A DNA stretch of 64,000 nt. It comes from Crambe crambe (taxonomy: Eukaryota > Porifera > Demospongiae > Poecilosclerida > Crambeidae). A program made the position numbers and the translations under genes. Shown piece after piece: positions 37,252-64,000 of the stretch (positions within the stretch are counted from its first letter, which is position 1; every line of letters starts with the position of its first letter). The stretch lies in contig OZ004590.1 of NCBI GenBank assembly GCA_963924555.1, forward strand, positions 5,696,001-5,760,000. Direction: 5' to 3'. Below the pieces are notes generated by a model. That model was not told the origin of the DNA and did no database searches. It saw only the letters and a program-made list of their open reading frames with translations.

Positions 37252-37521
37252 TGGGCTTCCACCATAGAACCCCCAATCCATCACTTCCTCCAAAAGTAAG
37301 TAGCGCTATGCTGGCACAGATTTTCTGATTGACTAGGTGACTAGCTAGCTCAGTTAATTAGCTAATACCTGAAGCAATATGAATATATTTATCCAAGACA
37401 TAGCTCATCATCATATTGAAGCATGAGAGAAGTAAAGATGTTAGTATCCAATGTATATCTATTGAAAAAATGTATATACCTATGTCATACCCATAGAAGG
37501 TGATCAAGAGTGTCCGAGAAG

Positions 37522-39144: not shown

Positions 39145-39372
39145 TGGGGTAGATACTGATGGAGTAGACACAGGTGACACCGATAGGGGGTAGGTGACAC
39201 TGATAGGGTAGGTGACACCAATGGGGTAGGCGACACCAATGGGGTACATGGTAATGAGGTACATGATGTAGGCGACACCAATGGGGTACATGGTAATGAG
39301 GTACATGATGTAGGTAATACCAATGGGGTAGGTAATGAAGGGATAGATGGGGAACACAATAACAATGGGGCT
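39125..39372. repeat. Minisatellite grown from the K2P C-terminal coding tail
   Basis: Units such as 'ggtgacaccaatggggta' and 'catggtaatgaggtacatga' follow the pseudogene's last open frame. The intact paralogue ends with a two-unit version of the same repeat inside its coding sequence (GVGNTNGVG). Confidence 0.75.
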
Positions 39373-39880
39373 AGCGAACTGACAGTATTGGAAATGGTTC
39401 CACTTTCTTCGAATTCTCACTCTTTTCCTGCTGGCTCTGCTGGCACATATTTTTGTGTTTGTGCTATTTTAATATTGTACATGACAGCTAGCTCCATTGC
39501 CATGCGCGCGCGTTCGATCAGTGTGCCACACCTATGCATAATTATGGTGTTAAAATTCTAGAGAAAGAAAACCATTTTGATATAGAAGGAGTACTACTTC
39601 GATAAAAGTAAGTCGTAGGCTTTAGTACCGAGTGATTCGTCCGTAGCGGGCGTAGGTGGGCGGAATGGGGGGGCAGTGCACCCTTCACCATCAAAAATAA
39701 ACAGCACCTCATCTCAAATCAACAGTAGTGAAGTGACAGTATATTTTTAGTTCTAGCCGTATGTGGCCGAATATTTGTATTGAAATGTAAGCCTATAGAC
39801 TACAACCATAGCTAGAACCCATAGAACATAATCCATAAATCTATCATGCCACACCCCTCTTTACAGATCTCCAACCAAAG
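39373..39880. other. Spacer between the tandem K2P copies
   Basis: No gene recognised. A CpG-rich patch (gccatgcgcgcgcgttcg) lies near 39499. It presumably carries the promoter of the downstream channel gene; an untranslated first exon ending before the acceptor at about 39866 is possible. Confidence 0.4.
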
Positions 39881-41507
39881 ATGAGCAAAGACAGTGATAC
39901 AGTTTCCACCAACACAGACACCTCAACTCCTGTCAGCTGTTTCTGCTGCAAGAAGGCATCATGCAAGAGGTTATGCTGCGGTTTCAACAGCTATTGGCGC
40001 TTGTTAATATTGTTTATTTCGGTTGCCATCTATTTATTCGTGGGAGGAGCTCTCTTTACTGCATTGGAGAAACCAAATGAGACCAGGTCCATCAAAGAAG
40101 CCCAAGTTGCCAGAAACAGTGCCATAACTGACTTAGAGATGCAGGTGGCTAGCTTTGTCAATTTGCTTGTGAATGCGACCAATCTGTCCAGGGAGGAAGC
40201 AGAGAATTTGACCAGAACTGTAGTCAGCCTGTCACAAAGGGTCTCGGAAGCTAATCAAACGATTCCAGCAGAGATCAATCCCATTTGGGATTTTTCTTCG
40301 GCTGTTTTCTTTGCATCCACTGTTGTAACAACTATAGGTAAGTTAACCAAGTCACAATACACTTGAGAATTTTTATCATTGCATATTATGCTATCATGTC
40401 GGAGTACATTATATGTATCCCACAGTCTATGAATATTGTTGTAACCACATTCCACAATTATTGTTGAAACAACCACTTGTGCCATAGATGGTAAGCACTC
40501 CTTAGATTCTAATTCTCCAGCCATGCATTCATGGCATGCACGATTGTTGCTTTTTATGTTATCTCATAAGCATATTCCACAGTGTTGTTGAAACAACCAC
40601 TTGTGCCATAGACATAAACTATGGTAAGCACTCCTTAGATTCTCCAGCCATGCATTCATGGCATGTTGTCTTTATGTTGTCTTAAAATCTGTACATCAAC
40701 AGATAAAATGGGAAGATGAGGAAATGTTATTTTAAAGAGAAGGTGCCCCCCTGCTACAATATTCTCATGCATTGGACCCTGGGGTCTAGACTCCACCCCA
40801 ATCACATACTTTCATGACCTCATTCTTTGTTCCCCTCCCTTTCAGGTTACGGGACCATAGCACCTGTTACCTCTGGCGGCCAGACCTTCTTCATCTTCTA
40901 TGCCCTCATAGGCATCCCCCTAGCCCTCATATTCCTCGCTCAAATCGGCAGCATCATAGACAAGTGGGTGGAGCGTGCTCTGAGCCCTGTCAAACGCCGT
41001 TGGGGGGCTACTGTCTCACGTGCAGCTGGTGTGCTCATACTCGTACTTGTGGCATTAATCTTCTTCATATTGATACCTGCTACTATATATGATTCCATTG
41101 AGGAATGGGACTACCGCCAAAGTGTATACTTCACAATTGTGACCCTAACTACTGTTGGTTTCGGTGACTTCGTGCCTGCCCTTTCAGGTGTGGCCACAAC
41201 AACCCCCGGCATTGCTTTGTATAAGCTCATCACAGCTGCCTGGCTCTGGATCGGACTGGCTATCGTTGCTGCACTGATTTCCGAGTCTCAGAATCTGATC
41301 GAGTCCGTTGGGAAGTGGTGTCGCACCCACCGTTGCTGCAAACTGAAGAATAAAATGGAGATTCAGCCAGATGAGAACGAATTGACGAAAGTAGCAGCCA
41401 AGAAGGAGGAGAACACTCAAGATGAAGCAGAACATACTTCTAGTGGGATAGAGGGTAATGGGGTAGGTAACACCAATGGGGTAGGTTCCAATGGGACTAA
41501 CGCATAA
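39881..41507 (+). CDS. KCNK: Two-pore domain (K2P) potassium channel
   Basis: Plasma-membrane background K+ channel, 372 residues, two exons (39881-40337, 40846-41507). Topology seen: a Cys-rich cytosolic N-terminus (CFCCKKASCKRLCC), M1 (LLILFISVAIYLFVGGALF), a long extracellular cap with EAQVARN and predicted N-glycosylation sites, pore 1 with TIGYG (residues 151-155), M2 (FFIFYALIGIPLALIFL), M3, pore 2 with TVGFG (255-259), M4 (AAWLWIGLAIVAALIS), then a charged tail ending in a short Gly/Asn/Thr repeat. The intron splits the codon of the first Gly of the GYG filter, the classic conserved intron position in K2P genes. The subfamily cannot be assigned by eye. Its tandem neighbour upstream is decayed. 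Confidence 0.93.
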
Positions 41508-45324: not shown

Positions 45325-48109
45325 CTAATGGCTAATCAATGCTATATCAGTATTCTTTGTCCGTTTATCTCCAACAACCATCATTTCTCTATCATTGATC
45401 ATTGTACTGGTGCATCGATGCCGTGGGCGTGGTAAACCCCCAACTTTCAGCCACTTTCCAGTTTCAGGTTGGTAGACTTGAATGGCATTGGTATCCCCCC
45501 AGCCACCCAATGCAAGCAGAGACCCACTGATGGATAGTGGAGTAGAGAGGGTAACATCTAGTTCAGATATCTCCTTCCAGATCTGTTTGTCTCTCTTACT
45601 AGAACTCTTTGGGTTGAGCAGAGATATGAGAGTTAGGAGGGACACATTGAATGCCTTCTTAGTAACAGCATCATTAATAAACCCACCCAAGAAATAACAT
45701 GTGTCACCCACTATGGCTGCCTTCATCTCACCCCATCCCACTGGGAGTAAAGGTGCAGTAGACCACTGTTTATTGCTGGTGTTCATGACCTCAACAGATG
45801 TTAAATAGTCCTCCTTTTCAGAATAGCCTCCAGCCACAACTAACCACTCTTTGTATATTACAGCAGAGCAGGAATAACGTGCTGTGGGCATATCAGGATA
45901 GGGATGCACCCATTCCTTGCTTGCAGCTCTCCATGCACCCAGTACCTTGCTATCAGCTCCATTCACTTCTGCTCCACCCACTAACACTAGTTGGTTGTGG
46001 ATCACTACCATACCAAAGTAGCATGTTTTATATGGTGGCAATGTGGCCCATTTCTCCAAGTGAATGTCATATACCATGACTTTGAATTCATTGTCATCAC
46101 CAGTATCTCCACCTCCAACATACATCATCCCCTGCATCACTACAGCCTGCATAGGACCTTCCATCCCAAATGGCATATCTGGACCACGCCTCCACTTTAA
46201 CTGGAGTGGGAATTTGAGTTTGAGGGGTACCTGTGAAATCAGGTGTTAATTACTGATGATGACCACCACTTAGTGTCTGACCTTTCCTTCCTGTTGCTGT
46301 TCCTGCCACCTCCTCAGTTCCTCCGTTAGTCTGCTGATCTCAGCATCTTTAGATTGCAGTTCCTCCCTCAGTCGAGACTCTCTTGACTCCAAGTCTGCAC
46401 GTAACTCCTATGAAGGAAGGTTATCAAATTCATGCAAAGTAAATTAATTTCGGTTGTGTGCACTAATTGGAATATCTCCAAGCTTAAGTGATCTACATGA
46501 GTTGGTATCTCACCTCTAGCTGCCTAATATCTTTCTGCTGCTGCTGAAATTGTCTCTCTTTAGCTTCCACTTCACTATGAAGCTGCCGGATTAGACCATC
46601 TTTAGTAGTAATTTCCCTGTTTTTTGTTTCCATTTCTTGCTGAGTTTGTCTCTCTCTCACCACAGCAGCCTGTAGTGTGCAATGAAATGATCGTTCCATT
46701 GTTGAAAAAATTAGGTATATATACTCACTTCTAATCCAGCCTGATATCTCTGTGATTCAACACATAGTCTCTGTGATTCAGCCTGGTGTCTCTGTGATTC
46801 AGCCTGATGTCTCTGTGATTCAGACTGGTGTCTCTGTGATTCAGACTGGTATCTCTGTGATTCAGCTTGCAGCCTTTCCAGATCTGCTTGATATCTTTCC
46901 TACATGACGAAGAATAATGATGGCATGTTATCAGGTTATCAGGTTTACAAGTACCTCTTGTCGAGTCAGTTCCTCTATCCTTCTGCCTTTCATCTTCAAA
47001 TCTTTGGCCAGCTTCACTCTTGCAATATCCAACTTAACTATACTGGCACCATACTCTCCTTCCACCTCCACCGTTATCCTCTGGAGTCTGTCCAGCACCT
47101 CATCAGTGGCTGGCCTTTCAGCTGGGACATTATGCAGACACTGCTCAACCAGCTGGACTAGAGCAGGGTGATGCCAGCAAATCTTATTTTCCAGCAATTC
47201 AATGTACTCTCCACGACGTTCTAGCTCAGTCCTTGCTTGGATGACTTGAGGATTGTCAGGACTGAAGAAAGTGCTCTGGAGAAGGTCACCTGGGAATGTC
47301 TGAAAGAGACCGTACTGGTGCCATTTTTAGCATCACAGTAGTGTAGAGTACTAACCTGTGTCATGGTGTAGAGGGCAAGGTGGCCAAAGGAGAAGATGTC
47401 GAGGGATGGTCCATAGCGGTGAGTCTCTCCCAGAGCTTCTGGTGGCATGTACACTAGCGTCCCTGGCAATTTTGAGAGTGTTCTGGCCATCTGACCTGGT
47501 CTCATGTCAACGATGCGTGAGTTGCCCATGTCAGTGATTTTGGCCACCAGAGAGGAGGTAAGGAGGACATTCTTGGCAGTCAGGTCCCTGTGTATGACTG
47601 GAGGTGTCCTCTTGTGGAGGTAGACCAGTCCACTGGCCACATCCTCCAGGACAGAGCGCTTGAGAGAGAGAGGGAGGCCAGGCATGTGTTCCAACAGGTC
47701 ATCCAGACTTGTCTCCAGTCGTTCCATCACCAGTAGAGGTAGTTGAGTCCCTGGGAGGAAGCACAGACCCAGGAACAGGGTGATGTTAGGGTGACGGAGG
47801 CTGGACATCAACTGGCACTCCTGCTCATACTTTTGGACAAGCTCAGGCACTCCTTGATTGCCAGCATCTATGAGAGCTTCATGAATCTTCTTGCCAGCAC
47901 AGATGAGATGGTGGCACTTTACCTGTTGAAGAGTAGATCTCACTAACATGCATTCAAATCTATTTCACTATACTGACCTCTTCCACTGAACCATAAGAAC
48001 CTGATCCCAGAACATTTCCAGTTGGAGTGACATCAGTCAGCATAAACTGCTGTAGGTGACGGTTGTTCCTGAAGGCCTGAGCCACACCATGTCTTCTCAA
48101 GAATGCCAT
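45325..48109 (-). CDS. Kinase-coiled coil-Kelch protein, unit A
   Basis: Predicted 800-residue cytosolic protein; no named family recognised. Exons 5' to 3': 48109-47978, 47922-47356, 47299-46955, 46899-46729, 46669-46514, 46407-46282, 46230-45325; every length is a multiple of three (all introns phase 0). Kinase domain: glycine loop GSGSYGSV (35-42), Lys in CAGKKIHE (55-56), helix C EQECQLM, HRDLTAKN (155-162), DMG instead of DFG (175-177), YMPPEAL. By eye it is closest to TKL/tyrosine-like kinases. Catalytic Lys, HRD Asp and the DMG Asp are kept, so activity is plausible. Then come a coiled coil with six or more ESQRHQA-like heptads and further charged coil exons. A C-terminal Kelch propeller follows (LVLVGGAE, EWLVVAGGYSE, SLLALGG), with repeated GG doublets. 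Kelch blades usually bind protein partners. Confidence 0.85.
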
Positions 48110-48270
48110 GATCAAAACAGAACTTCAAAAAGTAGGTGTGTCACATAATGAGATTCATAGTACAAAATACAGGTCTTTGGGTGTGTCCCATAAATGAGAT
48201 CCATTATGGTGGCTTGCATGTGGCATGAACATGACTGTGTGACACTTCCTTCATGAACACATAAGTTTCT

Positions 48271-48482
48271 GTGAGTTATATGCAATGTCAAGAATGTAGT
48301 TATAGAGACTATCAGTACACACTACGTAGACGACAATTTCATAGCTGCTATGGAAAATGCAAAGCATTGTGGGGCGAGCTCAGTTTACCCAAGATCATGT
48401 TAGGACAGATGTACGATGATGATATTCAGTACATTTATATATTTGCATATGAGGTTGTTTATAACACTATGTGAACCATATA
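48271..48482. repeat. Array-associated repeat module, copy 1
   Basis: Begins 'caatgtcaagaatgtagtta' and runs to 'tagaacaatgg'. The same module recurs at 48735-48930, in part at 50696-50825, and, split by an insertion, at 55885-55999 plus 56604-56790. This copy is the most diverged. Confidence 0.7.
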
Positions 48483-48565
48483 GAACAATGGTTTATCACA
48501 TGAATGCACTATGCGGGGGTTATACTAGCCTCGATCCCAGGCATTAGAGAGGAAGGCCTGGGTTA

Positions 48566-48712
48566 TACTACAGTGGATTGCTGTAATCTTGCAACAGAAC
48601 ACCAAACCAAAATTTACATAGCCTCGCCCAACTCTATTAAAAGCCACTTTGAAAGGAGAAATTTTGGTTTGGTGTTCTGGTGCAAGATTACTGCAATCCA
48701 TTGTAACACTTC
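48566..48712. repeat. Hairpin element with ~46-bp inverted arms
   Basis: The arm ending '...aacaccaaaccaaaattt' at 48566-48612 is matched in reverse complement by 48659-48712 (starting aaattttggtttggtgttct), with about three mismatches. It looks like a foldback MITE or its relic. The right arm recurs near 55838-55870. Confidence 0.75.
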
Positions 48713-48734
48713 CTTCATTCCTATTTACAATGTC

Positions 48735-48945
48735 AAGAATGTAGTCCTTCATTCCTATTTACAATGTCAAGAATGTAGTTATGGAGACTATCAGCACACA
48801 CTAGACCACAATTTAATAGCTACTAGGGAAATGCAAAGCATCGTGGGGCAAGCGCGCATGCTCAGTTCACCTAAGGTTATCACAGAAATAAACTACAATG
48901 TTAGGACCAATATACGACAATATATATATATATATATATATATAT
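48735..48945. repeat. Array-associated repeat module, copy 2 (uninterrupted site)
   Basis: Same module as at 48271, followed by a (TA)n run at 48921-48945. Around 'catgctcagtt' (about 48858) it is continuous, whereas the copy at 55.9 kb is interrupted there by a TIR element. Confidence 0.75.
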
Positions 48946-48947
48946 GT

Positions 48948-49056
48948 AATAGTTATTAACCAAGCGCTAGGTTTGTAGTCGAATTATAAGCACGAGGCCC
49001 GAGGGGCGAGTGCTTATAATTCACTACAAACCGCACGCGCGCGGTTAATAACTATT
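48948..49056. repeat. Palindromic element, about 109 bp
   Basis: Outer arms aatagttattaacc / ggttaataactatt and inner arms 48970-48993 / 49010-49032 (ggtttgtag...ataagcac and its complement), around a GC-rich centre (gaggcccgaggggcgag). Resembles a small foldback MITE. Confidence 0.8.
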
Positions 49057-49662
49057 TTATAGCCCGCGCGAGTGTACTACGCATGCTCAGTGCTTCTGTT
49101 TCTATAGCGATGCAGCTACTTTTTGGCTGCTTACAAGAATATGGCCATCCCACTTCAACGTCGTGATTCGTATGGTACCGAACTATCTTTCACTCTATAA
49201 CCCACCCACTCACTGTGTTGCCCACGTAAGGTAGGGGCACAGCGTCATAATTATGGTTGGACGCTGAATGGCAAGTAGGGCAGCTAGTGCAGAATACCAG
49301 CCACGCTGTTACACAGCTCGCAAGTTCTGCCTTTTATGCTGGCTACTCTATGAAAAGCTTGTTGGGTTTGAAATGGGGAATGTGGTCAATGAATATCATT
49401 ATAGCGTGCGCACCGTGTTCAATGAATAATATTAAAATTCTTTTCTGAGAGTAGTTAGTATAAGGACAGAACTCTATACTGTCACATACTCACCTTTCAG
49501 TCTAATCACAACTCCTTAAAAGTACAATATCAACTTTGCAGAATCTATATCTAACTTTTCCCTGTAAACACCACCCCAGGCTACAATTACATGCACTGTA
49601 TCACATTTATAAATCCATGTAAATCGGTCCGTTACCATGGCAACGGGCTATAAATATATATA

Positions 49663-49940
49663 TAAGTAAAAAAGCATTTCGTGAAATGAAAAAAGATGTA
49701 GGGATGACCACTGCTCAAAAAAGTAAGGAAACAAGAAGGATGGAATCTTTGTTCTGTATATCCAGCCAACAATCCCTACATATACGTACATTACTGCACT
49801 ATAATCTGTAGCTACACGTATATGTAGGGATTGTTGGCTGGATATACAGAACAAAGATTCCATCCTTCTTGTTTCCTTACTTTTTTGAGCAGTGGTCATC
49901 CCTACATCTTTTTTCATTTCACGAAATGCTTTTTTACTTA
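49663..49940. repeat. Perfect 125-bp inverted repeat with 28-bp spacer
   Basis: Left arm 49663-49787 and right arm 49816-49940 are exact reverse complements when compared base by base. Arms start taagtaaaaaagcatttcgt. No protein is credible inside. Either a very young foldback element or a palindrome-type assembly artefact. Confidence 0.9.
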
Positions 49941-50812
49941 CTTGTTCCTGGTCTTTTTTCCCTCTCTTTTATGGTTTTAGCTATGTATAAAGTTCATTCT
50001 TCTATGTGTATGCAGGGACAGATGAAAGAAGAGTAGTTCTCCGATAGCATACCAGCCCAATCAACGAGTCAAGGTGTTGTGTCATGTCTTACTTGGAGGT
50101 CGAAGATGCTGAAATAGTCTACCGTGGTGAATCTAAATCCCCGAGTCGATACAGTAGTCTATCATCATTATCTAGAGCATAGATAATGTATACTAAGCTA
50201 GTTAGCTAGCTAGCTAGAGACAGCTGAGTAATAATTATTATAATTTCGAATAATTGGATATCAAATACATGCGCATGCGTATTATAGAAAAGATGGCTTC
50301 CTAATATTGAATTAGTCAAGTGCTGTGCTCCTTACTGTCTCCTTTTTCATCGACTCTTTCGAGGATCAACGAGTGCAGCTGGTAGAATTTGGAGTGGATT
50401 TATCCAGAAATCATAGCTGTAGCTTGAGTGGTTCGAGAGATATGGTTATCTAAGAAGAATAACGATAACAATAGAGAAGAAGAAGAATCCAGCGATTTAC
50501 CTGCTTGCCGTATTTCTGAAACGGTAAGCTCCTTGGTCCTGAAACTTGGTCTGCACATTGTAGTAGGCTCTAGTAGGCTGGATAATCATTCACAGTAGCT
50601 TTTGTTAGGTCTAAGTGGGGGAACTAGAATTTCACTTTAGTATTAGTCTATAGGCGGCGCGCGTGGCCGTCCGAGTCATCCCTACATAGAGAGTGCTACC
50701 GCACTCTCTGATTATCAGTACATATTTATACATCTGCATATGAAGGTGAAAGGTCATCCTCACTAGTGTGGGGCTATATATATAACTTGTTTTATAACAC
50801 ACATTATGTGAA
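49941..50812. other. Intergenic region between units A and B
   Basis: No gene recognised. Contains a short hairpin (agagagtgctaccgcactct) at about 50686-50708 and, from about 50696, the 3'-flank module shared with unit C. Confidence 0.5.
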
Positions 50813-53653
50813 CTATATAAAACAATGGTTTAAACTAAATGCTATGTCTGTTTTGTTTGTCCATTTTGAATTTTCTATCCCTCCAGCCACTAGTATTTCT
50901 CTATCAGTTATCATGGCACTGGTAATCCGATGTCGAGGAGAAGGTATTTCTCCAACTTTCAGCCATTTCCCAGTCTCGGGTTGGTAGAGTTGGATAGCAC
51001 TTGTGGACTTAACACCCTCCACTCCTCCCAGTGCAAGGAGACACCCATTAACGGAGAGTGGAGTGGACTGGATGACTTGTAGACCGGATATCTCTTTCCA
51101 GATCTGTTTTGTTTTCTTGCTTGAAGCTTCTTGGTTGAGTTGCGATAGGAGAGCTGGGAGGGACACACTGTACACTGTGTCACTATTAGTCCCACCCATG
51201 AGGTACCACGTATCACCCACAATGGCCGACTTCATTTCACTCCATCCCACTGGCATGGGAGATGCTGTGTACCATTTTTTATTGTTGATGTTCATGACTT
51301 CGACAGAAAGTTGATACGTCCCATACTCTGAGTAGCCTCCAGCCACAACTAGCCATTCTTTATAAACCACTGCAGAACAGGAATCGTGTCCTCTTGGCAT
51401 ATCGGGATAGGGATGTACCCATTCCTTGCTTGCAGCTCTCCATACACCCAGCATCTTGCTTCCACGATTACCTCCCACTAACACGAGTTGGTTTTTGATC
51501 TCCGTCATAGAAAATTTAGTCGTTCGATATGATGTCAACCTTGTCCATCTTGCTAAATGAGTGTCATATCCCATGACATAACTGGACAGTCCTCCCCCGA
51601 CATACATTATCCCTTGCACCACTACTGACTGTACGTAATTGCTCATCCCAAGTGGCATATCTGGACCATGCCTCCATCTTAACTGAAGAGGGGGTTCGAG
51701 TTTGAGGGGTACCTGTGGAATGAGTTGTATAATTACTGATGATGACCACCACTTAGTGTCTGACCTTTCCTGTCCCCTCCTGTTGCTGTTCCTGCCACCT
51801 CCTCAGTTCCTCTGTTAGTCTGCTGATCTCAGCATCTTTAGATTGCAGTTCCTCCCTCAGTTGAGACTCTCTTGACTCCAAATCTGCACGTAACTCCTAC
51901 AGTTATATATGCATGTAAGGTTGTGAATAATGTCCTCCTTGGTGATTATCTGACCTTGATTCCATCCTGAACCTGCTGAAGTTGACTCTCTTTAACTTCC
52001 ATTTCACTCTGTAACTGCCAGATTTGACCGTTTTTAATAACAATTTCCCTATTTTTAGCCAGGATTTTTTCTTGATTTCGTCTCTCTTTCTCCTGTATCC
52101 ATGCAGTGGATGCATTTCTGATAGTTTTATAATTCCCAATACTTACTTCTAATTCTTTATTTTCCACTTCTAATTCTTCCTGTTGCCTCTCCAATTCAAC
52201 TTGCCGCCATTCCAATTCAGTTTGTTTTCTTTCCACCTCAGCTTGCTGCCGTTCCAACTCAGCTTCCTGCCTCTCCATTTCGGCTCTGCGTCTTTCTAAC
52301 TCATCTTGCTGCTTTTGCAGCTCAGCTCTCTGTAGTGTGTGCTGCCTTTCTTGTTCCATTCTGTGTCTTTCCAATTCAGTATACTGCCTATCCAATTCTA
52401 CTTGCTGTCTTTCCTGGAAGAAGAAGAAAAAGAAGAAGAAGAATGATTTAGCTATCAATTCAGCAGTAAAACCCTTCTTATAGTGTACCTGTTGTTGAGT
52501 CAATTCTTCTATCTTTCTGTCTTTCTTTCTCATGTCTCTAGCAAACCTAACTCTTGCAATGTCTAACTCAATCACACTGGGACCATACTCTCCTTCCACC
52601 TCCACCTTCATCCTCTGGAGTCTGTCCAGCACCTCATCAGTGGTTGGCCTTTGAGTTGGAACATTATGCAGACACTGCTTGACCAGCTGGACTAGAGCAG
52701 GGTGGTACCAGCCAACTTGATTTTCCAGCGATTCAATGTACTCTCCACGACGTTCCAGCTCAGTCCTTGCTTGGATGACTTGAAGATTGTCAGGAGTGAA
52801 GAAAGTGCTCTGGAGAAGATTACCTGGGAATTTCTAAGTTTTATGCAGAATGCCATTTATATTTTGTATGGCAAGTAATGGCATGATTTTACTGACCTGT
52901 GTTATGGTGTAGAGGGCAAGGTGGCCAAAGGAGAAGATGTCTAGGGATGGTCCATAGCGATGAGTCTCTCCCAGAGCTTCTGGTGGCATGTACACTAGTG
53001 TCCCTGGCAATTTGGAGAGTGTCCTAGCCATCTGACCTGGTCTCATGTCAATGATGCGTGAGTTGCCCATGTCAGTGATCTTGGCCACCAGAGAGGAGGT
53101 GAGGAGGACGTTCTTGGCAGTCAGGTCCCTGTGGATGACTGGAGGTGTCCTCTTGTGGAGGTAGACCAGTCCACTGGCTATATCCTTTAGGAAGGAGCGC
53201 TTCACAGAGAGAGGAAGGCCAGGCATGTGTTCCAATAGGTCATCCAGACTTGTCTCCAGTCGCTCCATCACCAGTAGAGGCAACTGAGTCCCTGGAAGGA
53301 AACACAGGCCCAGGAACAGGGTGATGTTAGGATGACGGAGGCTGGACATCAACTGACACTCCTGCTCATACTTATGGACAAGTTCATCTGCTCCTTCATT
53401 GTCAACTTCTATGAGAGCTTCATGAATCTTCTTGCCAGCACAGATGAGTTGCTGGTGCTTCACCTGTAGACAGTAAATTGAGTCACTAACAGGCTACTAA
53501 CTATCACTAAGAGAAACTGACCTCTTCCACTGAACCATATGAGCCTGTTCCAAGAATCTTACCAGTTGGAGTGACATCAGTCAGCACAAACTGTTGTAAG
53601 TGATGGTTGTCTCTAAAGACACGAGTCACACTGTGTCCTCTTAAGAGTTCCAT
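50813..53653 (-). CDS. Kinase-coiled coil-Kelch protein, unit B
   Basis: Complete paralogue of unit A, predicted 826 residues. Exons 5' to 3': 53653-53522, 53463-52897, 52833-52489, 52413-52147, 52092-51955, 51896-51765, 51712-50813; all multiples of three. Kinase exon 2 is 567 bp, exactly as in A, C and D. Motifs: GTGSYGSV, CAGKKIHEALI, HRDLTAKN, DMG, YMPPEAL. The first coil exon differs from A: a long ELERQQAEVERKQTELEW-type repeat replaces A's ESQRHQ heptads. Kelch blades are intact (LVLVGG, WLVVAGGYSE, WYLMGG, CLLALGG, ILVAGG), ending with a stop at 50813-50815. The intron before the coil is a GAA-rich run. Nearly identical to unit C, so the duplication is recent. Confidence 0.85.
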
Positions 53654-53744
53654 GATACAAGTAAAATGTAATTAACATGTCATGTGTAATATGAGACATT
53701 ATCAGTTGTCTTAAGTGATTATAACCAATTAATCAATCTTGGTA
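53654..53744. promoter_or_regulatory. Presumed promoter interval of unit B
   Basis: About 90 bp between the unit B start codon and the minisatellite; the homologous interval upstream of unit C is similar. No defined motif was seen. Confidence 0.3.
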
Positions 53745-54255
53745 TGCACCCTCACAGTGAAACCTTGGTATGTACCCCTAGAGTGAAATTTTGTATGTAC
53801 CCCCAGAGTGAAACCTTGGTATGTATCCCCAGAATGAAACCTTGGTATGTACTCCTAGAGTGAAATTTCCCACAGTGAAACCTCCTAGAGTGAAATTTTG
53901 GTGTGTACCCCACAGTGAAACCTTGGTATGTACCCCCAGAGTGAAACCTTGGTATGTGCCCCCTGAGTGAAACCTTGGTATGCACCCCCAGAGTGAAACC
54001 TTGGTATGTACCCCCAGAGTGAAACCTTGGTACGTGCCCCCTGAGTGAAACCTTGGTATGCACCCCCAGAGTGAAACCTTGGTATGTACCCCTAGAGTGA
54101 AATTTCCCACAGTGAAACCTCCTAGAGTGAAATTTTGGTGTGCACCCCACAGTGAAACCTTGGTATGTACTCCCAGAGTGAAAACTTGGTATGTGCCCCC
54201 AGAGTGAAACCTTAAGTATGCACCCCCAGAATGAAACCTTGGTAAGTACTCCCAT

Positions 54256-54291
<36 letters not shown>

Positions 54292-54395
54292 AGAGTGAAA
54301 CCTTGGTATGTACCCCTAGAGTGAAATTTTGGTATGTATCCCCAGAGTGAAACCTAGATTTGTTTCACTCTGGGGGTACATACCTGTATGCACAT
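53745..54395. repeat. 26-bp minisatellite upstream of unit B, with poly-C
   Basis: About 22 copies of a unit like 'ccttggtatgtacccccaga' + gtgaaa, with variants, plus a C-run of roughly 36 at 54257-54291. The minus-strand open frames (GVHTKVSL-type repeats) are translation of the satellite, not a gene. A shorter array of the same unit lies upstream of unit C. Confidence 0.92.
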
Positions 54396-54573
54396 GCATA
54401 ATCATAGCCCATTATCAAATAATACATGTGAAGATGTAGCTATGTGATACATAAAGGGATAAATCAGTGTATGGTGGTACATGTTAGTGTTTTCCAGTGT
54501 TATAAGAAGTAACTATATAGGCTATGCGACCATGTACTGTGCAATGAAAATAGTATGGAATGTACAAATCGAA

Positions 54574-55402
54574 CTAATAGCTGATCAATGCTGTATCAAT
54601 TTTCTTTATCCAATTAAAATCTTTGCGTCCTCCAATCACCATCATTTCTCTATCATTGATCATTGCACAAGTGCAGTTACATCGTGGGTGTGATGGATCT
54701 CCAACTTTCAGCCACTTCCCAGTTTCAAATTGTAGTTGAGTCTTTACCAGCCTTCTTACCACCCAATGCAAGCAGAGACCCACTGATGGAGAGTGGAGTG
54801 GAGTAGATATCATCTAGTTCAGATATCTCCTTCCAGATTGGTTCGTCTCTCTTGCTAGAAATCATTGGGTTGAGCAGAGATATGAGAGCTGGGAGAGACA
54901 CACTGAATACCTTCTTAGTAGTGCCTCTTAATATAAGCCCACCCATATAGTAACACGTATCACCCACTATGGCTGTCTTCATCTCGGCCCATCCCACTGG
55001 CAGTGGAGGTGCAGTAGACCATTGTTTATTGCTGGTGTTCCTGACCTCAACAGATGTTGAATAGTTCCCCTTTTCAAGATAACCTCCAGCCACAACTAAC
55101 CATTCTTTGTATATTACAGCAGAACAGGAACAACATGCTGTGGGCATATCAGGATAGGGATGCACCCATTCCTTGCTTGCAGCTCTCCATGCACCAAGTA
55201 CCTTGCTTTTAGCTCCACCCACTTTCCTTTCATTCCACCCACTAACACTAGTTGGTTGTTGATCACTGTCATACCAAAGTAGCATGTGGTAATGTGGCCC
55301 ATTCCCCTGAGTGAATGTCATATACCATTAGTTTGTATCTATTGTATTTACCTCTGCTTGCTGCCGTTCCAACTCAGCTTCCTGCCTCTCCATTTTGGCT
55401 CT
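54574..55402 (-). pseudogene. Relic of a kinase-coil-Kelch unit (coil exon fragment plus Kelch)
   Basis: Minus strand: 55402-55352 matches part of the B/C-type coil exon (MERQEAELERQQAE), followed within about 30 bp by unit A-like Kelch sequence (KEWVHPYPDMPTA, EWLVVAGGYLE, LLALGG). The Kelch frame breaks near 54745, where the FETGKWLKVG blade continues in a different frame to a stop at 54574. No kinase exon is present between it and unit C. Confidence 0.8.
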
Positions 55403-55880
55403 CATTAAGTGACGTATTTTGTTAAATCGTGTCATAAAGTTCTAGCTGGCCAGTATTACTTAATATTAGAGGGAGGTGGCCAAGGCAGTACGAGACCATG
55501 CCCCCCATCGCTCATGACGTCAAAACGGTGGATTCTTCCTGCTATCGTGGACCGTCAGCAAGTGTAAGAAATAGTAGATAAATAGGCCAAAAGCAATTTT
55601 GTCAGAGGGATTCTCGAAATAATGAGCCATACTGATGTTACTCGCAGAGTTGTGTACCGTCAAGCACCCTAGTTTGAGGTTATCTGCGGCTCCTGCCTTC
55701 TCTGTTCAAGCTATTCACTATCCCTCCGGTGTAAATTTCAAGTATCATGTAGTAGAGCCTCACAAACCTGCATGTAACATGCAGTGTGGCATGTCCTTAA
55801 TTGCACTGAGACACTCTAAAGCCTTTTTGGACAATGGTGTTCTGGTGCAAGATTACTACAATCCATTGTAACACTTCCTT
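55403..55880. other. Intergenic between the Kelch relic and the module copy
   Basis: No gene recognised. A plus-strand open frame (55635-55871) has no family resemblance and ends in the hairpin-arm repeat. Confidence 0.4.
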
Positions 55881-55884
55881 CATT

Positions 55885-55999
55885 CCTATTTACAATGTCA
55901 AGAATGTAGTTATGGAGACTATCAGCACACACTAGACCACAATTTAATAGTTACTAGGGAAATGCAAAGCATCGTGGGGCAATCGCACATGCTCAGTTA
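55885..55999. repeat. Array-associated repeat module, copy 3 left part
   Basis: Nearly identical to 48752-48866, then interrupted at 56000 by the TIR element and resumed at about 56606. Confidence 0.75.
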
Positions 56000-56603
56000 G
56001 CCTCATACCCAGGCCTGCTTTTTTTGCGGGGCGGTGGAAAAGCGAAGGACCTGGTATAAGTTGCATGCGCATGCGCTTAATTAGACACGAAATAATATGT
56101 AAAATTTCGTCCATGATGAATATGTAATCATAAAAACGTATGTAGCACGTGCGCATTCAATCAGTGCAGCCTAGCTAGCTAGCTAGATCTGGCTCCAGAC
56201 CTTATCCACATCAGTGAAAATAAACTAAGACGCAACAAGAATAGCACTATCCCTCTCAAGTCAAGCTTATGGTCAAAAACAAAAGATAAGACACGATACT
56301 TTGATAGCAGCGACTCTTCTCGTCTAACCAGTTGGTAGCGACACAAACAAATAACTTCTTTCATGAACAGCTTGCACAGAACGCTTCTGGGAGTGAGGTG
56401 AGTTGAATCTAGTCGCAAAAAGACAGAACAGTCTAGAGCTAGCTCGACGATGATGTAATGTTTATTACGATTGTGTAACGGACGTGCCTGCAAGTATAGC
56501 GAGTCCCCCCTAAATGGGGGGATGGAGTGCATGTGCATGCAGCTTATACCAGGCCCTTCGCTTTTCCACCGCCCCGCAAAAAAAGCGGGCCTGGGTACGA
56601 GGC
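56000..56603. mobile_element. Non-autonomous TIR DNA element (about 604 bp)
   Basis: Terminal inverted repeats of about 74 bp at 56000-56073 and 56530-56603 (starting gcctcatacccaggcc / gcctcgtacccaggcc in complement), five mismatches. Flanking direct repeat 'atgctcagtt' on both sides suggests a 9-10-bp target-site duplication. No transposase. The length of the duplication would suit a Mutator-like source, but this is only inference. Confidence 0.8.
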
Positions 56604-56772
56604 CAATGCTCAGTTTACCCAAGGTCATCACAGAAATAAACTACAATGTTAGGACCAATATACGACAATATATATCAGTACATATTTATACATCTGCATA
56701 TGAGGGTGAAAGGTCATCCTCACTAGTGTGGGGCTATATATATAACTTGTTTTATAACACACATTATGTGAA

Positions 56773-59253
56773 CTATATAAAACAATGGTTTAAACTAAAT
56801 GCTATGTCTGTTTTGTTTGTCCATTTTGAATTTTCTATCCCTCCAGCCACTAGTATTTCTCTATCAGTTATCATGGCACTGGTAATCCGATGTCGAGGAG
56901 AAGGTAACTCTCCAACTTTCAGCCACCTCCCAGTGCAAGGACACACCCATTAACGGAGAGTGGAGTGGACTGGGTGACTTGTAGACTGGGTATCTCTTTC
57001 CAGATCTGTTTTATTTTCTTGCTTGAAGCTTCTTGGTTGAGTTGCAATAGGAGAGCTGGGAGGGACACACTGTACACTGTATCACTATTGGTCCCACCCA
57101 TGAGGTACCACGTATCACCCACAATGGCCGACTTCATTTCACTCCATCCCACTGGCATGGGAGATGCTGTGTACCATTTTTTATTGTTAATGTTCATGAC
57201 TTCGACAGAAAGTTGATAAGTCCTGTACTCTGAGTAGCCTCCAGCCACAACTATCATCCCAAGTGGCCTATCTGGACCACACCTCCATCTTAACTGGAGA
57301 GGGGGTTTGAGTTTGAGGGGTACCTGTGGAATGAGTTGTATAATTACTGATGATGACCACCACTTAGTGTCTGACTTTTTCCTGCCCCCTCCTGTTGCTG
57401 TTCCTGCCACCTCCTCAGTTCCTCTGTTAGTCTGCTGATCTCAGCATCTTTAGATTGCAGTTCCTCCCTCAGTCGAGACTCTCTTGACTCTAAGTCTGCA
57501 TGTAACTCCTACAGTTATATATGCATGCAAGGTTGTGAATAATGTCTTCCTGGGTGACTATCTGACCTTGATTCCATCCTGAACCTGCTGAAGTTGACTC
57601 TCTTTAACTTCCACTTCACTCTGTAACTGCCAGATTTGACTGTTTTTAATAACGATTTCCCTATTTTTAGCTATGATTTTTTCTTGATTTCGTCTCTCTT
57701 TCTCCTGTATATCCAGTGGATGCATTTCTGATAGTTTTATAATTCCCAATACTTACTTCTAATTCTTTATTTTCCACTTCTAATTCTTCCTGTTGCCTCT
57801 CCAATTCAACTTGCCGCCATTCCAATTCAGTTTGTTTTCTTTCCACCTCAGCTTGCTGCCATTCCAACTCAGCTTCCTGCTTCTCCATTTCGGCTCTGCG
57901 TCTTTCCAACTCGTCTTGCTGCCTTTGCAGCTCAGCTCTGTGTAGTGTGTGCTGCCTTTCTTGTTCCATTCTGTGTCTTTCCAATTCAGTATATTGCCTA
58001 TCCAATTCTACTCGCTGCCTTTCCTGGAAGAAGAAGAAAAAGAAGAAGAAGAATGATTTAGCTATCAATTCAGCAGTAAAACCCTTCTTATAGTGTACCT
58101 GTTGTTGAGTCAATTCCTCTATCTTTCTGTCTTTCTTTCTCATGTCTCTAGCAAACTTAACTCTTGCAATGTCTAACTCAATCATACTGGGACCATACTC
58201 TCCTTCCACCTCCACCTTCATCCTCTGGAGTCTGTCCAGCACCTCATCAGTGGTTGGCCTTTCAGCTGGGACATTATGCAGACACTGCTTGACCAGCTGG
58301 ACTAGAGCAGGGTGGTGCCAGCCAACTTGATTTTCCAGCAATTCAACGTACTCCCCACGACGTTGTAGTTCAGTCCTTGCTTGGATGACTTGAAGATTGT
58401 CAGGACTGAAGAAAGTGCTCTGGAGAAGATTACCTGGGAATTTCTAAGTTTTATACAGAATGCTAGTATGGCAAGTAATGGCATGATTTTACTAACCTGT
58501 GTTATGGTGTAGAGGGCAAGGTGGCCAAAGGAGAAGATGTCAAGGGATGGTCCGTAGCGGTGAGTCTCTCCCAGAGCTTCTGGTGGCATGTACACTAGCG
58601 TCCCTGGGAATTTTGTGAGTGTCCTAGCCATCTGACCTGGTCTCATGTCAATGATGCGTGAGTTGCCCATGTCAGTGATCTTGGCCACCAGAGAGGAGGT
58701 AAGGAGGATGTTCTTGGCAGTCAAGTCCCTGTGTATGACTGGAGGTGTCCTCTTGTGGAGGTAGACCAGTCCACTGGCTACGTCCTCCAGGAAGGAGCGC
58801 TTCACAGAGAGAGGAAGGCCAGGCATGTGTTCCAGCAGGTCATCAAGACTCGTCTCCAGTCGTTCCATCACCAGTAGAGGCAGTTGTGTTCCTGGGAGGA
58901 AGCACAGGCCCAGGAACAGGGTGATGTTAGGGTGACGGAGGCTGGACATCAACTGGCACTCCTGCTCATACTTATGGACAAGTTCATCTGCTCCTTCATT
59001 GTCAACTTCTATGAGAGCTTCGTGAATCTTCTTGCCAGCACAGATGAGTTGCTGGTGCTTCACCTGTAGACAGTAAATTGAGTCACTAACAGGCTACTAA
59101 CTATCACTAAGAGAAACTGACCTCTTCCACTGAACCATATGAGCCTGTTCCAAGAATCTTACCAGTTGGAGTGACATCAGTCAGCACAAACTGTTGTAAG
59201 TGATGGTTATCTCTAAAGACACTAGTCATACTGTGTCCTCTTAAGAGTTCCAT
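56773..59253 (-). pseudogene. Kinase-coiled coil protein with broken Kelch part, unit C
   Basis: Paralogue nearly identical to unit B. Exons 5' to 3': 59253-59122, 59063-58497, 58443-58099, 58023-57757, 57704-57567, 57508-57376, 57323-56773. Kinase and coil exons are open with the motifs seen in B (GTGSYGSV, HRDLTAKN, DMG). The last coil exon is 133 bp against 132 in B, so the Kelch exon is entered out of frame and meets a stop within about 20 codons. The Kelch exon also has two internal deletions: after RPLGM it jumps to VVAGGYSE (losing two blades), and after VLALGG it loses the blade before WLKVGE. It may still yield a kinase-coil protein, so 'pseudogene' applies to the Kelch half. Confidence 0.75.
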
Positions 59254-59357
59254 GATAAAACTAAGGAGCAGTTCAGATGTCATGTGTAATATGAGATTAC
59301 CAATTAGCTAATAGTTGTCTTAAGTGGTTATGATAATTTGTAACCAATCAATCAATC

Positions 59358-59492
59358 TTGGTATGTACCCCCAGAGTGAAACCTTGGTAAGTACCCCCAG
59401 AGTGAAACCCTGGTATGTACCCCCACAGTGAAACCTTGGTAAGTACCCCCAGAGTGAAACCTTGGTATGTATCCCCCACAGTGAAATCTAAG
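59358..59492. repeat. 26-bp minisatellite upstream of unit C
   Basis: Five to six copies of the same ccttggtatgtacccccagagtgaaa-type unit as at 53745, at the same position relative to the start codon, so it was duplicated together with the gene. Confidence 0.88.
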
Positions 59493-60612
59493 GTATTATA
59501 TATAAGTCTCGTTATACAGGGTGGTCTCATTAATTTCACTGCAGGTACACACACAATCTACGCTAAGACCGCGGTAATTGAGTGAACACTTCCTGTTTAT
59601 ATTTCTACAATGAAACATGGCGCGGCACATGTAGCTTATATGCCCATCATGAAAACAATTATAACTCCAGTTCTAATTCATCTTTGCTTATATAATTATA
59701 AAATAAGAGAGAATAATGTTTATTGTTTCTTCTGGGTCTCTTACTTCCGCTGGTACTTCAAAACTGGACCAAGAGAGGGTAAGTAAACATGAGTGAAAAT
59801 TCTTGATGTTGCCCACTTCAGTTGACTGAACAACCTGATGCGAACTATAGCAGGTCCTCCATTTCTTGACAGCAAGTGCCAGAAGCTCTTCTGTTCATAA
59901 TATCACCACATCCACTCAGTTTCTGCTTTTTCCTCAGAGATACAAGGGGTCAAAAATGGCTGAAAATGGCCAGGTTTCAGCGATCAGTAGCAGCCACGAA
60001 GGATATATCTAAGGTTAAGTAAAGTAGTCTAAGTGTAAATCAACTCTCTAGTAGTAGTGATAAGAAGTTTTAGCTCCCTAGAACTGGAGGCTGAAAGTTT
60101 ATGACTCTTCTAACAGAGCCATTCTCTCTACCTACTGATCTTTGACTGACTGAACAAGTTGATGTGAATGACCTCACCACTCTATTTTTAGAATTTAAGT
60201 TAAGTTACATCATTGAACAATAACTCAGGATAGTTTTTTTCTTCGTGGACCTTTACCCTGTCAAGATACTTCACCAGGTAAGAGCTGATTTAGGTCCTCC
60301 ATTAGCATTCGCACACAAATAAATGAGTGGGCGTTCCAATTATTTGCGCACGGCTCCATTAGTATGCTTGCCTAAATATTTTGCCGCAGTTGAATTATAA
60401 TTATATTCATGGCTTGTTAGAGCAATTAATTGTACATGCCAAGATCACCCAAACTGGTGGGTCTTAGTGTAGACTGCACATTATACAGGGTCTACATGGG
60501 TCATAGTAAAAAAAGTGTATCTTGGAAGAATTAAATGATGTAGAAATGGCATTTTTTCACACAATGTTTTATTGCTAGTAATACAAACTCTATACTAATG
60601 AGTAAGTAACTA
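59493..60612. other. Intergenic between units C and D
   Basis: AT-rich; no open frame, RNA gene or mobile element recognised. Confidence 0.5.
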
Positions 60613-61858
60613 CTATTTGAGTGAGCCTATATCAGTTCTGTTTATCAATACTCCTCCTTTGGTCCCTCCAAGTAGCAGTACTCTCCTGTCTGAAATCATT
60701 GTAGCAATGCAGTCAAATCGTGGCGAGGGCAGCTCTCCGACTTTCAGCCAAGTCTTAGTGTCCTGTTGATAGAGTTGAATCGAACTGGTACATTCGCTGT
60801 CACGCCCACCGCCAATTGCAAATAGAGACTCGCTAATTACGAGGGGAGCAGATCGGGTGGTTCCTGGTCCCATTAGCTCATTCCAGACCTGTCCATTATC
60901 TGACCTCCTTGGATTGAGAAGCTGAGATAGGAGAGCTGGAAGGAATACAGTGTACATCTTATCAGTGTGACTGACTGTATAACCGCCCATGAGGTACCAC
61001 ATGTCTCCGATAGTAGCTGTCTTCATATCACTCCACCCCCTTGGCATTGGAGGTGCAGTGTGCCACTGTTGATTTCTTGTGTTCAAGATGTCGATAGACA
61101 TTTGATATTGATCAGCTTCAGAGTAGCCTCCAGCTACTATTAACCATTCTTTATAAGAAACCGCGGAGCAGGAGTGACGTGGCGTGGGTAGATTCGGATA
61201 GGGGTGGATCCATTCCCTGTATTGAGCTCTCCACACTCCCAATGCACTGCTTTTGCAAAAAAGTTCTACTCCACCAACTAACAATAGTTGTCCATTGATG
61301 GATGTCATCGCAAACTTGTGTGCTTTATATGGAGGCAACTTGGTCCACTTCCCCGAGGGAATGTCGTATTCCATGACTAATTGTTTGTTCTTGTTGCTGT
61401 CGGAATTCCCACCTCCGACATAAACTTTTCCCTCCACCACCACCGACTGCACATAGCCGCCCATCTTCACTGGCATGTCTGGACCACGCTTCCACCTCAA
61501 CTGGAGGGGGAATTTGAGTACGAAGGGAACCTATAATTGCACAATGCATTCATTGTTGAAGCATGATTCCTGTGTTCATAAAACTACGAAATGCACAAAT
61601 CCTCTCCCCCCCCCCCCCCCCCCCCCGAAAATTTCTCACAATGCAATTACCTGTCCCTCTTGTATAAGTTCCGTCCACCTCCTCAATTTTCCCCTCAATA
61701 TGCTGAGCTCGGCTTCTTTAGCCTGCACTTCCACCCGTACTTGTTCCAAGCTAGTACACAATTCCTGCAGGAATAGACACAGTATTTCACGAAATTGTTA
61801 ATAGTATGTAAATCACACACGATGGTTGTGGCTAGTACAGTAGCTATGATGTCATGTT

Positions 61859-61906
<48 letters not shown>

Positions 61907-64000
61907 GACCTACTTGCTATGTAGCAATTGAAAAACCAAAATTGAAGTGCCAAAATTCCTGACCTTCACAAATAACTGTGTGAAGTTGCTAGCCAAGGTA
62001 TCGATTTCACAGAAAAGACAAAGTTCTCTATGCTTAATTACACTTTACTCTGTGGCATGCAGTTATAATAACAGTCTGGAGCTTTCCTCAAGGGTAGGTG
62101 TCCGAAATTAAATTCTTATTCTAATGAGTAATGGACACTGACTGCATGCAGGGACTTTGCCCTGGATAGCCATAAAATGTGTGGGTGTTTCGTGAGGAGT
62201 AGTTAGTCATCACTCAGAGTCTGTTTTGCAATTAAGCCTGCTCTATATAAGTCCTGTAATAGATTGGTGACACCCTGTTAAACAAGCTTCGTGAATAAAC
62301 ATGAAATGTGTTAGCAGATTTGATTAATTGTATTGCATGTCTACAGTTTACCTTCATAAAAAGTGTTTGGCAAATGAGATTTATGTTACCTCGGTTTGAA
62401 TTTGTGCTGCATTTTGGTGTTGAAGTTGTTCATTCTTCTCTGAGATTTCGCTCTGTAAATGCACAAGTTGCCTCTCACTGGCCTCCACCTCACTTTGCAG
62501 CTGCCTGAGTTGTCTGTCTCTACCTTCCACCTCATGCTGTAACTGCTGGAGTTGACTATCCTTTGCTTGAACCTCACTCTGATGCCGCCTGAGTTGTGTT
62601 TCCTTGGTCTCCACCTCTCTCTGTAGCTGTTGGATTTGATGATCTTTATTGAGAATTTCCTTGGCTTTGATCTCAATTTCTTCTGTTTTCTTGGTCTCCA
62701 TCTCTCTCTGTAGCTGTTGGATTTGACGATCTTTATCGAGAATTTCCTTGCCTTTGTTCTCAATTTCTTCTTGATATCGTCTATCCCTTACCTGTAAAGG
62801 TGTATATGAAATACTCACTCCACTCTCTTCTAACTGTCTTATTTGTGTGTCTTATCTTATCCCCATGCATTATTATGAAATACTCACTCCACTCTCTTCT
62901 AACTGTCTTGTCATTTCTTCCAATTGAACTCTGTTCCTTTCCAATCGAGTTTGGTGCCTATTCTGTTGATAAGAGATACAAGAGCATTATGTCTATCGAT
63001 CTTGGAAAGAATTTGCCTTACTTGTTCTTCCCTCATTCTTGCTATCGTATCATCTTTCATTTCCATTTCTTTGGCCAGTCGAAGTGTGGAAAAATCAATT
63101 TTTACTAAGCAGCTGCCATATTTTCCCTTAATTTGCTCCCTCATCCTCTGGAGTCTGTCCAGCACATCATCAGTGGTCGGCCGTTTAGCTGGAGCATTAT
63201 GCAGACACTCCTTGACCAGCTGGACTAGAGCAGGATACCCTGTACCTACTTGATGCTCCAGTATTTCTATATATTCCCCACGACGTTCAAGCTCAGATCT
63301 TGCAGCAAGAGTTTCTCGAGGATTATCAAAATTATCAGGAGTCACAAAAGTACTATGGAGAAGTTTATCTGGGGATTTCTGATGAAGCAACACTTGTATC
63401 ATTCTTTGTTTACAAAATTTGCATTGTGCTCACCTGTGTTATGGTGTAGAGGGCAAGGTGACCAAATGAGAAAATGTCAAGGGCTAGTCCATAGCGATGA
63501 GTTTCATCTATAGCTTCTGGTGGCATGTACTGTAACGTCCCTGGGTATTTTGAGAATGTCCTGGCCATCTGACCAGGTCTCATGTCAGTGATGCGAGAAT
63601 TACCCATGTCAGTGATCTTGGCCACCAGAGAGGAGGTAAGGAGGACGTTCTTGGCAGTCAGGTCCCTGTGTATGACTGGAGGTGTCCTCTTGTGGAGGTA
63701 GACCAGTCCACTGGCCACGTCCTCCAGGACAGAGTGCTTGAGGGAGAGAGGGAGGCCAGGCATGTGCTCAAGCAGGTAATCAAGGTTAGTCTCTAGTCGT
63801 TCCATCACCAGTAGAGGCAGTTTAGTCCCTGGGAGGAAGCACAGGCCCAGAAATTGGGTGATATTGGGATGGTGGAGGCTGGACATTAACTGGCACTCTT
63901 GCTCATATTTTTGGACAAGTTTAGGCACTCCTTGATTGCCAGGATCAATGAGAGTTTCATGAATCTTCTTGCCAGCACAGATGAGATGCCGGTACTTCAC
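60613..64000 (-). CDS. Kinase-coiled coil-Kelch protein, unit D (5' exon outside window)
   Basis: Fourth paralogue, more diverged. Exons 5' to 3': 64000-63434 (567-bp kinase exon whose first base is the last base of the window), 63378-63022, 62962-62888, 62791-62390, 61764-61651, 61530-60613; all multiples of three. The glycine-loop exon lies beyond the window. Seen: CAGKKIHETLI, HRDLTAKN, DMG, YMPPEAI, a C-lobe ending KRPTTDDVLDRLQRM, a distinct coil built of repeated 'IQQLQREVETKE/ QLQSEVEA' heptads, and intact Kelch blades (LLLVGGVE, EWLIVAGGYSE, WYLMGGY, SLFAIGGG, VLLLGG), with stop at 60613-60615. Intact by eye, so D is likely functional. The coil is its own type, distinct from A and B. 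Confidence 0.83.
61602..61626. repeat. Poly-C run in a unit D intron
   Basis: About 22-25 consecutive C between exons 61530 and 61651; length probably unreliable. Confidence 0.85.
61857..61905. repeat. (TTG)n microsatellite in a unit D intron
   Basis: About 15 gtt/ttg units in the intron between exons 61651-61764 and 62390-62791. Confidence 0.9.
62805..62909 (-). repeat. Duplicated exon-end/donor segment in unit D
   Basis: A 36-bp block (tatgaaatactcactccact...aactgtctt) occurs at 62805-62840 and 62874-62909. On the minus strand each copy is the end of a coil exon (RQLEESG) plus its gtgagt donor, so one copy may be an alternative or dead splice site. Confidence 0.8.

Follow-up and report, generated by a model that had tools for sequence, protein, structure and literature searches.

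Kinase, coiled coil and Kelch propeller in a tandem gene array of the sponge Crambe crambe: a candidate family of receptor kinases

The window analysed here, a 64,000-nt stretch of the 143-Mb genome assembly of the sponge Crambe crambe, carries on its minus strand (positions 45325-64000) four gene copies, A, B, C and D, in which a protein kinase, a coiled coil and a Kelch propeller follow one another, together with one relic, and thereby raises the question whether these parts form one protein and what many copies of such a protein may serve. The tandem array is confirmed: tblastn with the exons of copy D gave, for each of A, B, C and D, matches to exons 1, 2, 3 and 7 in one order and on one strand, and exon 2 matched all four copies at E values of 2.6e-111 or lower. 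The four same-strand paralogues and the relic counted by the first-pass annotation thus stand as regards order and strand, with the qualification that the Kelch part of copy B is damaged and that exon 1 of copy A lies outside the window, at C13:5760056-5760187, i.e., 56-187 bases past its end (C-numbers denote contigs of the assembly, L-numbers loci read).

One polypeptide and a large family

Copy D is complete, comprising seven exons (window 48109-45325) that encode an 800-residue product with a kinase, a coiled coil and a six-bladed Kelch propeller. All of its exon lengths are multiples of three, all six introns are in phase 0 with GT-AG ends, and the spliced frame is free of stop codons from the kinase through the Kelch domain, with the Kelch exon starting at an acceptor in phase with exon 6. 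A full spliced model was made for copy D only, the coil exons of A, B and C being read by eye. Kinase, coil and Kelch all lie in open frames in copies C and A; the Kelch exon of copy B is without approximately residues 23-129 of the domain and has a second frame break further along. The coil exons of D, C and B contain a 21-base tandem repeat, one unit of which equals one heptad (heptad-length repeats at 52190-52327 in C and 57800-57937 in B), an 87-base repeat is found in copy A (62597-62771), and the hydrophobic residues of the copy D coil follow a heptad pattern. The Pfam profile search that had been named as a check on these domains was carried out on the window copies exon by exon, not on whole proteins, and identified a kinase in all three kinase exons scanned (D, C and A), Kelch repeats in all four Kelch stretches scanned (D, C, A and the relic), and no family in the three other scanned stretches (exon 3 and coil).

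We conclude that the parts form one protein, because four relatives elsewhere in the genome encode kinase and Kelch in one uninterrupted frame, which bears out the order of kinase, coil and Kelch in one polypeptide proposed at first reading. Three of these intronless relatives follow one another at C5:9.124-9.132 Mb, with stop-to-stop lengths of 698, 692 and 764 residues, and the fourth, of 772 residues, is located at C15:4.486-4.489 Mb. Kinase and Kelch repeats share one open frame in 4/4 according to Pfam, which at E 0.001 gives kinase and Kelch/propeller families only and no match to BTB, BACK, Death, CARD, ankyrin, NACHT or NB-ARC in any of the four. A full-length structure model of one relative (mean predicted local distance difference test score, pLDDT, 62.8) contains, between the kinase and a well-modelled propeller, a 60-residue helix of mixed confidence.

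The family is large, and the tandem expansion first suggested by the window is borne out genome-wide. Searches of the assembly gave at least 151 matches to the kinase exon of copy C and at least 129 to the Kelch exon of copy D; among the 150 listed kinase matches, 80 have a same-strand Kelch match at most 9 kb downstream (one of the 80 with an intervening kinase), and none has a Kelch match within 6 kb on the other strand (0/150, and 0/67 of the best-scoring). For the best-scoring 67 kinase matches (74-100% identity), a same-strand Kelch match within 3 kb downstream was found in 63, and for the remaining 83 listed in 10; the contrast of 63/67 with 0/67 leaves no room for chance. Three of the best 67 are without a Kelch match within 9 kb. 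The main clusters of the best 67 lie at C13:2.19-2.46 Mb (15), C12:0.71-0.82 Mb (15) and C9:8.25-8.35 Mb (10), with smaller ones at C9:0.13-0.21 Mb (6) and in the window (4).

Several further clusters were observed alongside the family. Two adjoining kinase-Kelch copies at C18:6.126-6.134 Mb have equal match scores in both exons and are probably a very recent duplicate. At C16:5.42-6.05 Mb there are 24 listed PF07714 matches, many of them within extended open frames of up to 879 residues, apparently a further kinase expansion of another type. A cluster of 19 Kelch matches at C6:8.39-8.67 Mb is 29-32% like copy D (L032:411-1340 lies within it), and in L032, one 5-kb stretch of this cluster, no match to the copy D kinase exon was found in the 3.6 kb upstream.

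Opposite selection on the kinase and Kelch halves

Across 14 close copies at C13:2.23-2.46 Mb (91 pairs per exon) the kinase is constrained and the Kelch domain is not. Exons 1, 2 and 7 are open in 14/14 of these copies and exon 3 in 13/14. Median synonymous divergence (dS) is similar in kinase exon 2 (0.097) and the Kelch exon (0.108); the pairwise ratio of nonsynonymous to synonymous change (omega, ratio of means) is 0.11 for exon 2, 0.37 for exon 1, 0.41 for exon 3 and 0.89 for Kelch, and codon models give 0.13, 0.40 and 1.15 for exon 2, exon 3 and Kelch, respectively. Within the Kelch domain, the top-face loops have an omega of 1.55 vs 0.44 for the rest, a face contrast equalled in 1 of 300 rotations of the labels, and 23 of the 25 hypervariable sites (four or more residues) fall in DA or BC loops, at positions equivalent in all six blades. 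Eighteen such positions, namely the third and second residues before strand a and the third after strand b in each of the six blades, reach an omega of 3.55 (site-bootstrap 95% range 1.74-12.4; 13 copies). Strands and bottom loops are constrained in both this cluster and the second one described below (omega 0.18-0.51). As identity among the copy D blades is only 11-22%, the shared variable register was not copied from blade to blade.

One locus of this cluster deserves separate mention: at L023:6381-6717, exon 3 aligns in two frames while exons 1, 2 and 7 are open, which may reflect recent pseudogenisation or a fault in the assembly. Leaving out L023 too (12 copies) leaves the selection pattern unchanged, with omega values of 1.62 for the top face, 3.49 for the 18 positions and 0.42 for the rest, and a codon-model value of 1.20 for Kelch.

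The cluster on C12 repeats the pattern in weaker form. Its omega is 0.13 for the kinase (13 exons, L061 excluded for a stop) vs 0.83 for Kelch (15 exons, L036 excluded for a stop); Kelch frames are open in 15 of the 16 copies read, of 17 listed. Here DA or BC loops hold 31 of the 36 hypervariable sites, and the top face shows an omega of 1.06 vs 0.33 for the rest (1 of 296 rotations). Together, the omega contrasts of the two clusters agree with the diversification by tandem duplication put forward in the first-pass annotation and place it in the Kelch face, not in the kinase.

Moreover, halves of the gene have been exchanged between copies, for which one clear case was found. L027 and L020, approximately 113 kb apart, differ at 4 of 2,353 aligned bases over the stretch that begins near the end of exon 3 and closes with the stop codon, non-coding insertions or deletions several hundred bases long being left out of this count. 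In the kinase half L027 is closer to L018, its exon 2 differing by 0.5% from that of L018 vs 2.5% from that of L020. Since L027 resembles L020 in the coil-Kelch half and L018 in the kinase half, one recognition half was moved onto another kinase half. Given the low identity between blades, single blades are not exchanged here as they are in the fungal HNWD genes.

The Kelch face as a candidate recognition surface

The kinase end is predicted to be active, its catalytic motifs being intact. All six of the glycine loop, beta-3 Lys, alpha-C Glu, HRD, D-x-G and P-P-E are present in 20/20 kinases of the C13 set (19 on C13, copies A-D included, plus L033, which is also counted in the C12 set), and the exon 2 motifs Lys, HRD, DMG and PPE in 13/13 of the C12 set, where exon 1 was read only for L033. 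DMG replaces DFG in this family. The 60 best of 1942 matched solved sequences mix the tyrosine kinase (TK), tyrosine kinase-like (TKL) and WNK groups; EGFR is the best, and TYK2, WNK, TNNI3K, IRAK4, RIPK2, CTR1 and Roco4 are also among these 60. The TKL kinases IRAK4, RIPK2 and TNNI3K differ in architecture, as the four single-frame sponge relatives match no Death, CARD or ankyrin family and have Kelch instead. A search of plasmid records gave 53 matches, all below 60% identity, with distant bacterial kinases among the matches listed; in their introns, tandem expansion and chromosomal location the genes look like those of the host, so that a bacterial or viral origin is improbable. A Kyte-Doolittle scan of copy D alone placed the top hydropathy window within the kinase core and none at the N-terminus, which suggests that this copy is without a signal peptide or transmembrane segment and should act in the cytosol, in line with the cytosolic location assumed from the start.

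Taken from the pattern of sequence change, it is probable that these genes encode cytosolic receptor kinases with a diversifying Kelch recognition face. The propeller would be the recognition module, its top face of six DA and six BC loops binding a ligand that may be microbial, parasitic or conspecific, the microbial or allogeneic nature being a guess. The coil of heptad-length repeats may assemble the protein into dimers or higher oligomers, so that a ligand, if bound, would gather kinase domains for trans-phosphorylation. Signalling would run via a single conserved pathway, which, as we propose, would keep the kinase constant while the Kelch face varies. Tandem duplication, exchange of coil-Kelch halves and selection on the face would keep generating new specificities, and a fast copy-to-copy change of the face is expected of receptors for self/non-self or microbes. 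A more far-reaching version, which we put forward tentatively and with some doubt, is a germline repertoire of approximately 80 or more cytosolic receptor kinases with an antigen-binding, six-fold Kelch face, varied by coil-Kelch swaps and at about 18 symmetric positions, as an animal counterpart of fungal propeller allorecognition. If true, a constant kinase end and about 18 mapped variable surface positions would offer ligand baits, polymorphism markers and a traceable pathway, with relevance to self/non-self recognition in sponges and to their handling of dense microbial communities within the tissue. To our knowledge, no animal Kelch propeller has been described as a recognition surface that diversifies, although the literature on selection in Kelch domains was not searched.

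The fungal HNWD proteins (HET-D/HET-E family), whose logic appears most similar, carry a NACHT domain, a match that the four single-frame sponge relatives lack, as they do NB-ARC. According to the parts of PMC1805685 covered, they likewise fuse a propeller to a signalling module, form a paralogue family, have few interaction-surface residues per repeat under diversifying selection and exchange pieces between members; they differ in having WD repeats, no kinase and exchange of single repeats, whereas the sponge genes have Kelch and a kinase and exchange the whole coil-Kelch half. Diversifying selection at repeated propeller-face positions is found in the C13 copies, and in C12 omega is not clearly above 1. 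BTB-Kelch (KLHL) substrate adaptors such as KEAP1, KLHL20 and KLHL12 share the six-bladed Kelch propeller, whereas the sponge relatives have no BTB or BACK match, carry a kinase in that place and have a face that is hypervariable between paralogues. In KEAP1, the target-binding pocket on one face is built by DA and BC loops (section of PMC4668279), and the DAPK1 peptide contacts every one of the six DA loops of KLHL20 and all but one of its six BC loops (section of PMC6720452). The variable loops of the sponge proteins thus correspond, as far as these sections describe, to the target-binding loops of KEAP1 and KLHL20, which favours the Kelch face as a recognition surface.

Each component has been described before, and the principle has a precedent in fungi; an animal protein that combines a kinase with a hypervariable Kelch face was not found in the literature covered, i.e., portions of the open-access literature on sponges and kinomes (subscription papers and proteome databases, those of sponges, ctenophores and choanoflagellates among them, were outside this scope). 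Nor, within the same scope, was a named animal family with this domain order found, as the first-pass annotation had supposed. A 'large TK-expansion' is reported for Amphimedon queenslandica in the text of PMC3777111 available to us, which like the present family is a large sponge kinase expansion, but in which the word Kelch has 0 occurrences. Microbial patterns change Kelch-motif and kinase genes, as separate genes, in two sponges (PMC6208332, in part), and Kelch-type propeller and kinase domain families are among those differing by niche in Mycale grandis (PMC11000336, in part). Further excerpts concern a trypanosomatid table with one Kelch-bearing kinase in a 'unique' class (PMC1266030), GPCR-TKL fusions (GPCR, G-protein-coupled receptor), in the passages covered without Kelch (PMC12716839), and KEAP1 (PMC12266349).

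Several points weigh against receptor kinases with a diversifying face. The full-length model mentioned above has an unusable kinase N-lobe and is a monomer model only. Adding window copies D, C and A together with L030 and L031 to the C13 set drops the top-face omega to 1.00. Pairwise counts are non-independent, only sites are resampled in the bootstrap, and tree-based omega is perturbed where copies have exchanged sequence. C13 had been inspected before the 18 positions were chosen, which leaves C12 as the sole independent set, and there the top face has an omega of 1.03 (0.76-1.42) and the 18 positions 1.27 (0.65-2.43); with a face omega of about 1, positive selection in C12 is not separable from relaxed constraint. 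The face analysis covers the kinase-linked Kelch clusters on C13 and C12, and the pattern may not be special to Kelch domains that are linked to a kinase. Finally, a conserved kinase with a divergent recruiter would also suit substrate-specifying kinases, which would use the same face.

This last explanation, in which the Kelch face picks endogenous proteins and paralogues diverge by neofunctionalisation without any non-self recognition, is the best of the alternatives and still unlikely. The Kelch faces of KEAP1 and KLHL20 do choose endogenous targets; we nevertheless consider it the less likely reading, since young copies that otherwise resemble one another continue to diverge at the face, and a face omega above 1 among many near-equal recent copies, together with coil-Kelch exchange, is arguably a better fit to an open-ended arms race or frequency-dependent selection than to a fixed range of substrates. 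Relaxed constraint, under which the family turns over by birth and death, the kinase half is the part that counts and the Kelch half decays as a passenger, has still lower odds in our judgement. It would account for the broken Kelch frames of copy B and the relic, for the internal stops flagged in some other Kelch matches and for the C12 face omega of about 1, but strands and bottom loops are held in both clusters, the Kelch frames are open in all C13 copies and in all but one of those read on C12, and decay would not choose the same three positions in six blades. That kinase and Kelch exons are separate, alternating genes duplicated as a unit is highly improbable: 6 of the first 68 Kelch matches do lack a nearby kinase match and the window copies are known from DNA alone, yet the intronless relatives fuse both in one frame and copy D splices in phase, without a stop, into its Kelch exon.

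Coordinates and neighbouring features

Table 1 Exons of copy D and extent of the other copies in the window.
Feature	Position in window	Strand	Content
Copy D exon 1	47978..48109	-	Start codon, kinase N-terminus, glycine loop GSGSYGSV; GT donor, phase 0
Copy D exon 2	47356..47922	-	Kinase domain: AGKK lysine, HRDLTAKN, DMG, PPE; PF00069 at 8.6e-27 on its frame
Copy D exon 3	46955..47299	-	Kinase C-lobe ends, helical linker begins; alone without Pfam match
Copy D exon 4	46729..46899	-	Coil, heptad pattern; 21-base tandem repeat, 6.1 copies
Copy D exon 5	46514..46669	-	Coiled coil
Copy D exon 6	46282..46407	-	Coiled coil
Copy D exon 7	45325..46230	-	Six-bladed Kelch propeller and stop codon; predicted structure pLDDT 92
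Copy C	50813..53653	-	Exon 1 53653-53522, exon 2 53463-52897, exon 3 ~52833-52489, Kelch exon 51712-50813
Relic	54577..55352	-	Kelch only, broken frames, no kinase exon
Copy B	56797..59253	-	Open frames in exons 1-3 (59253-58099) and in the coil; damaged Kelch exon
Copy A	60613..64000	-	Exon 2 64000-63434, exon 3 ~63378-63020, Kelch exon 61530-60613

A 26-base minisatellite lies just upstream of copies C and B (53738-54254 and 59357-59486), the former stretch being also readable as a 237-base unit. Outside the window, a further Kelch exon is found at L009:3732-4640, with no match to the copy D kinase exon nearby in the 40 kb examined; an astacin metalloprotease frame (PF01400; L009:2124-2903, plus strand) lies between copy A and this exon. 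Two near-identical long frames about 4 kb apart (L009:6932-8209 and L010:670-2172, the latter without a Pfam match) are probably a recent tandem duplication. Within the window, plus-strand frames of ion-channel type occupy 37504-41504 (Ion_trans_2 in 40818-41504), and the similar cysteine-rich stretches 37504-38166 and 39839-40363 suggest tandem channel genes. Additionally, L064 and L065 (C15:0.865-0.878 Mb), among clustered PF00112 matches, are silicatein-like papain-family exons in which the catalytic Cys is replaced by Ser, which makes a demosponge host very probable; of five papain-family stretches read, three have the usual CGSCWAF and two have CGSSYAF or CGASYAF, the Cys-to-Ser change being the silicatein signature that marks demosponges.

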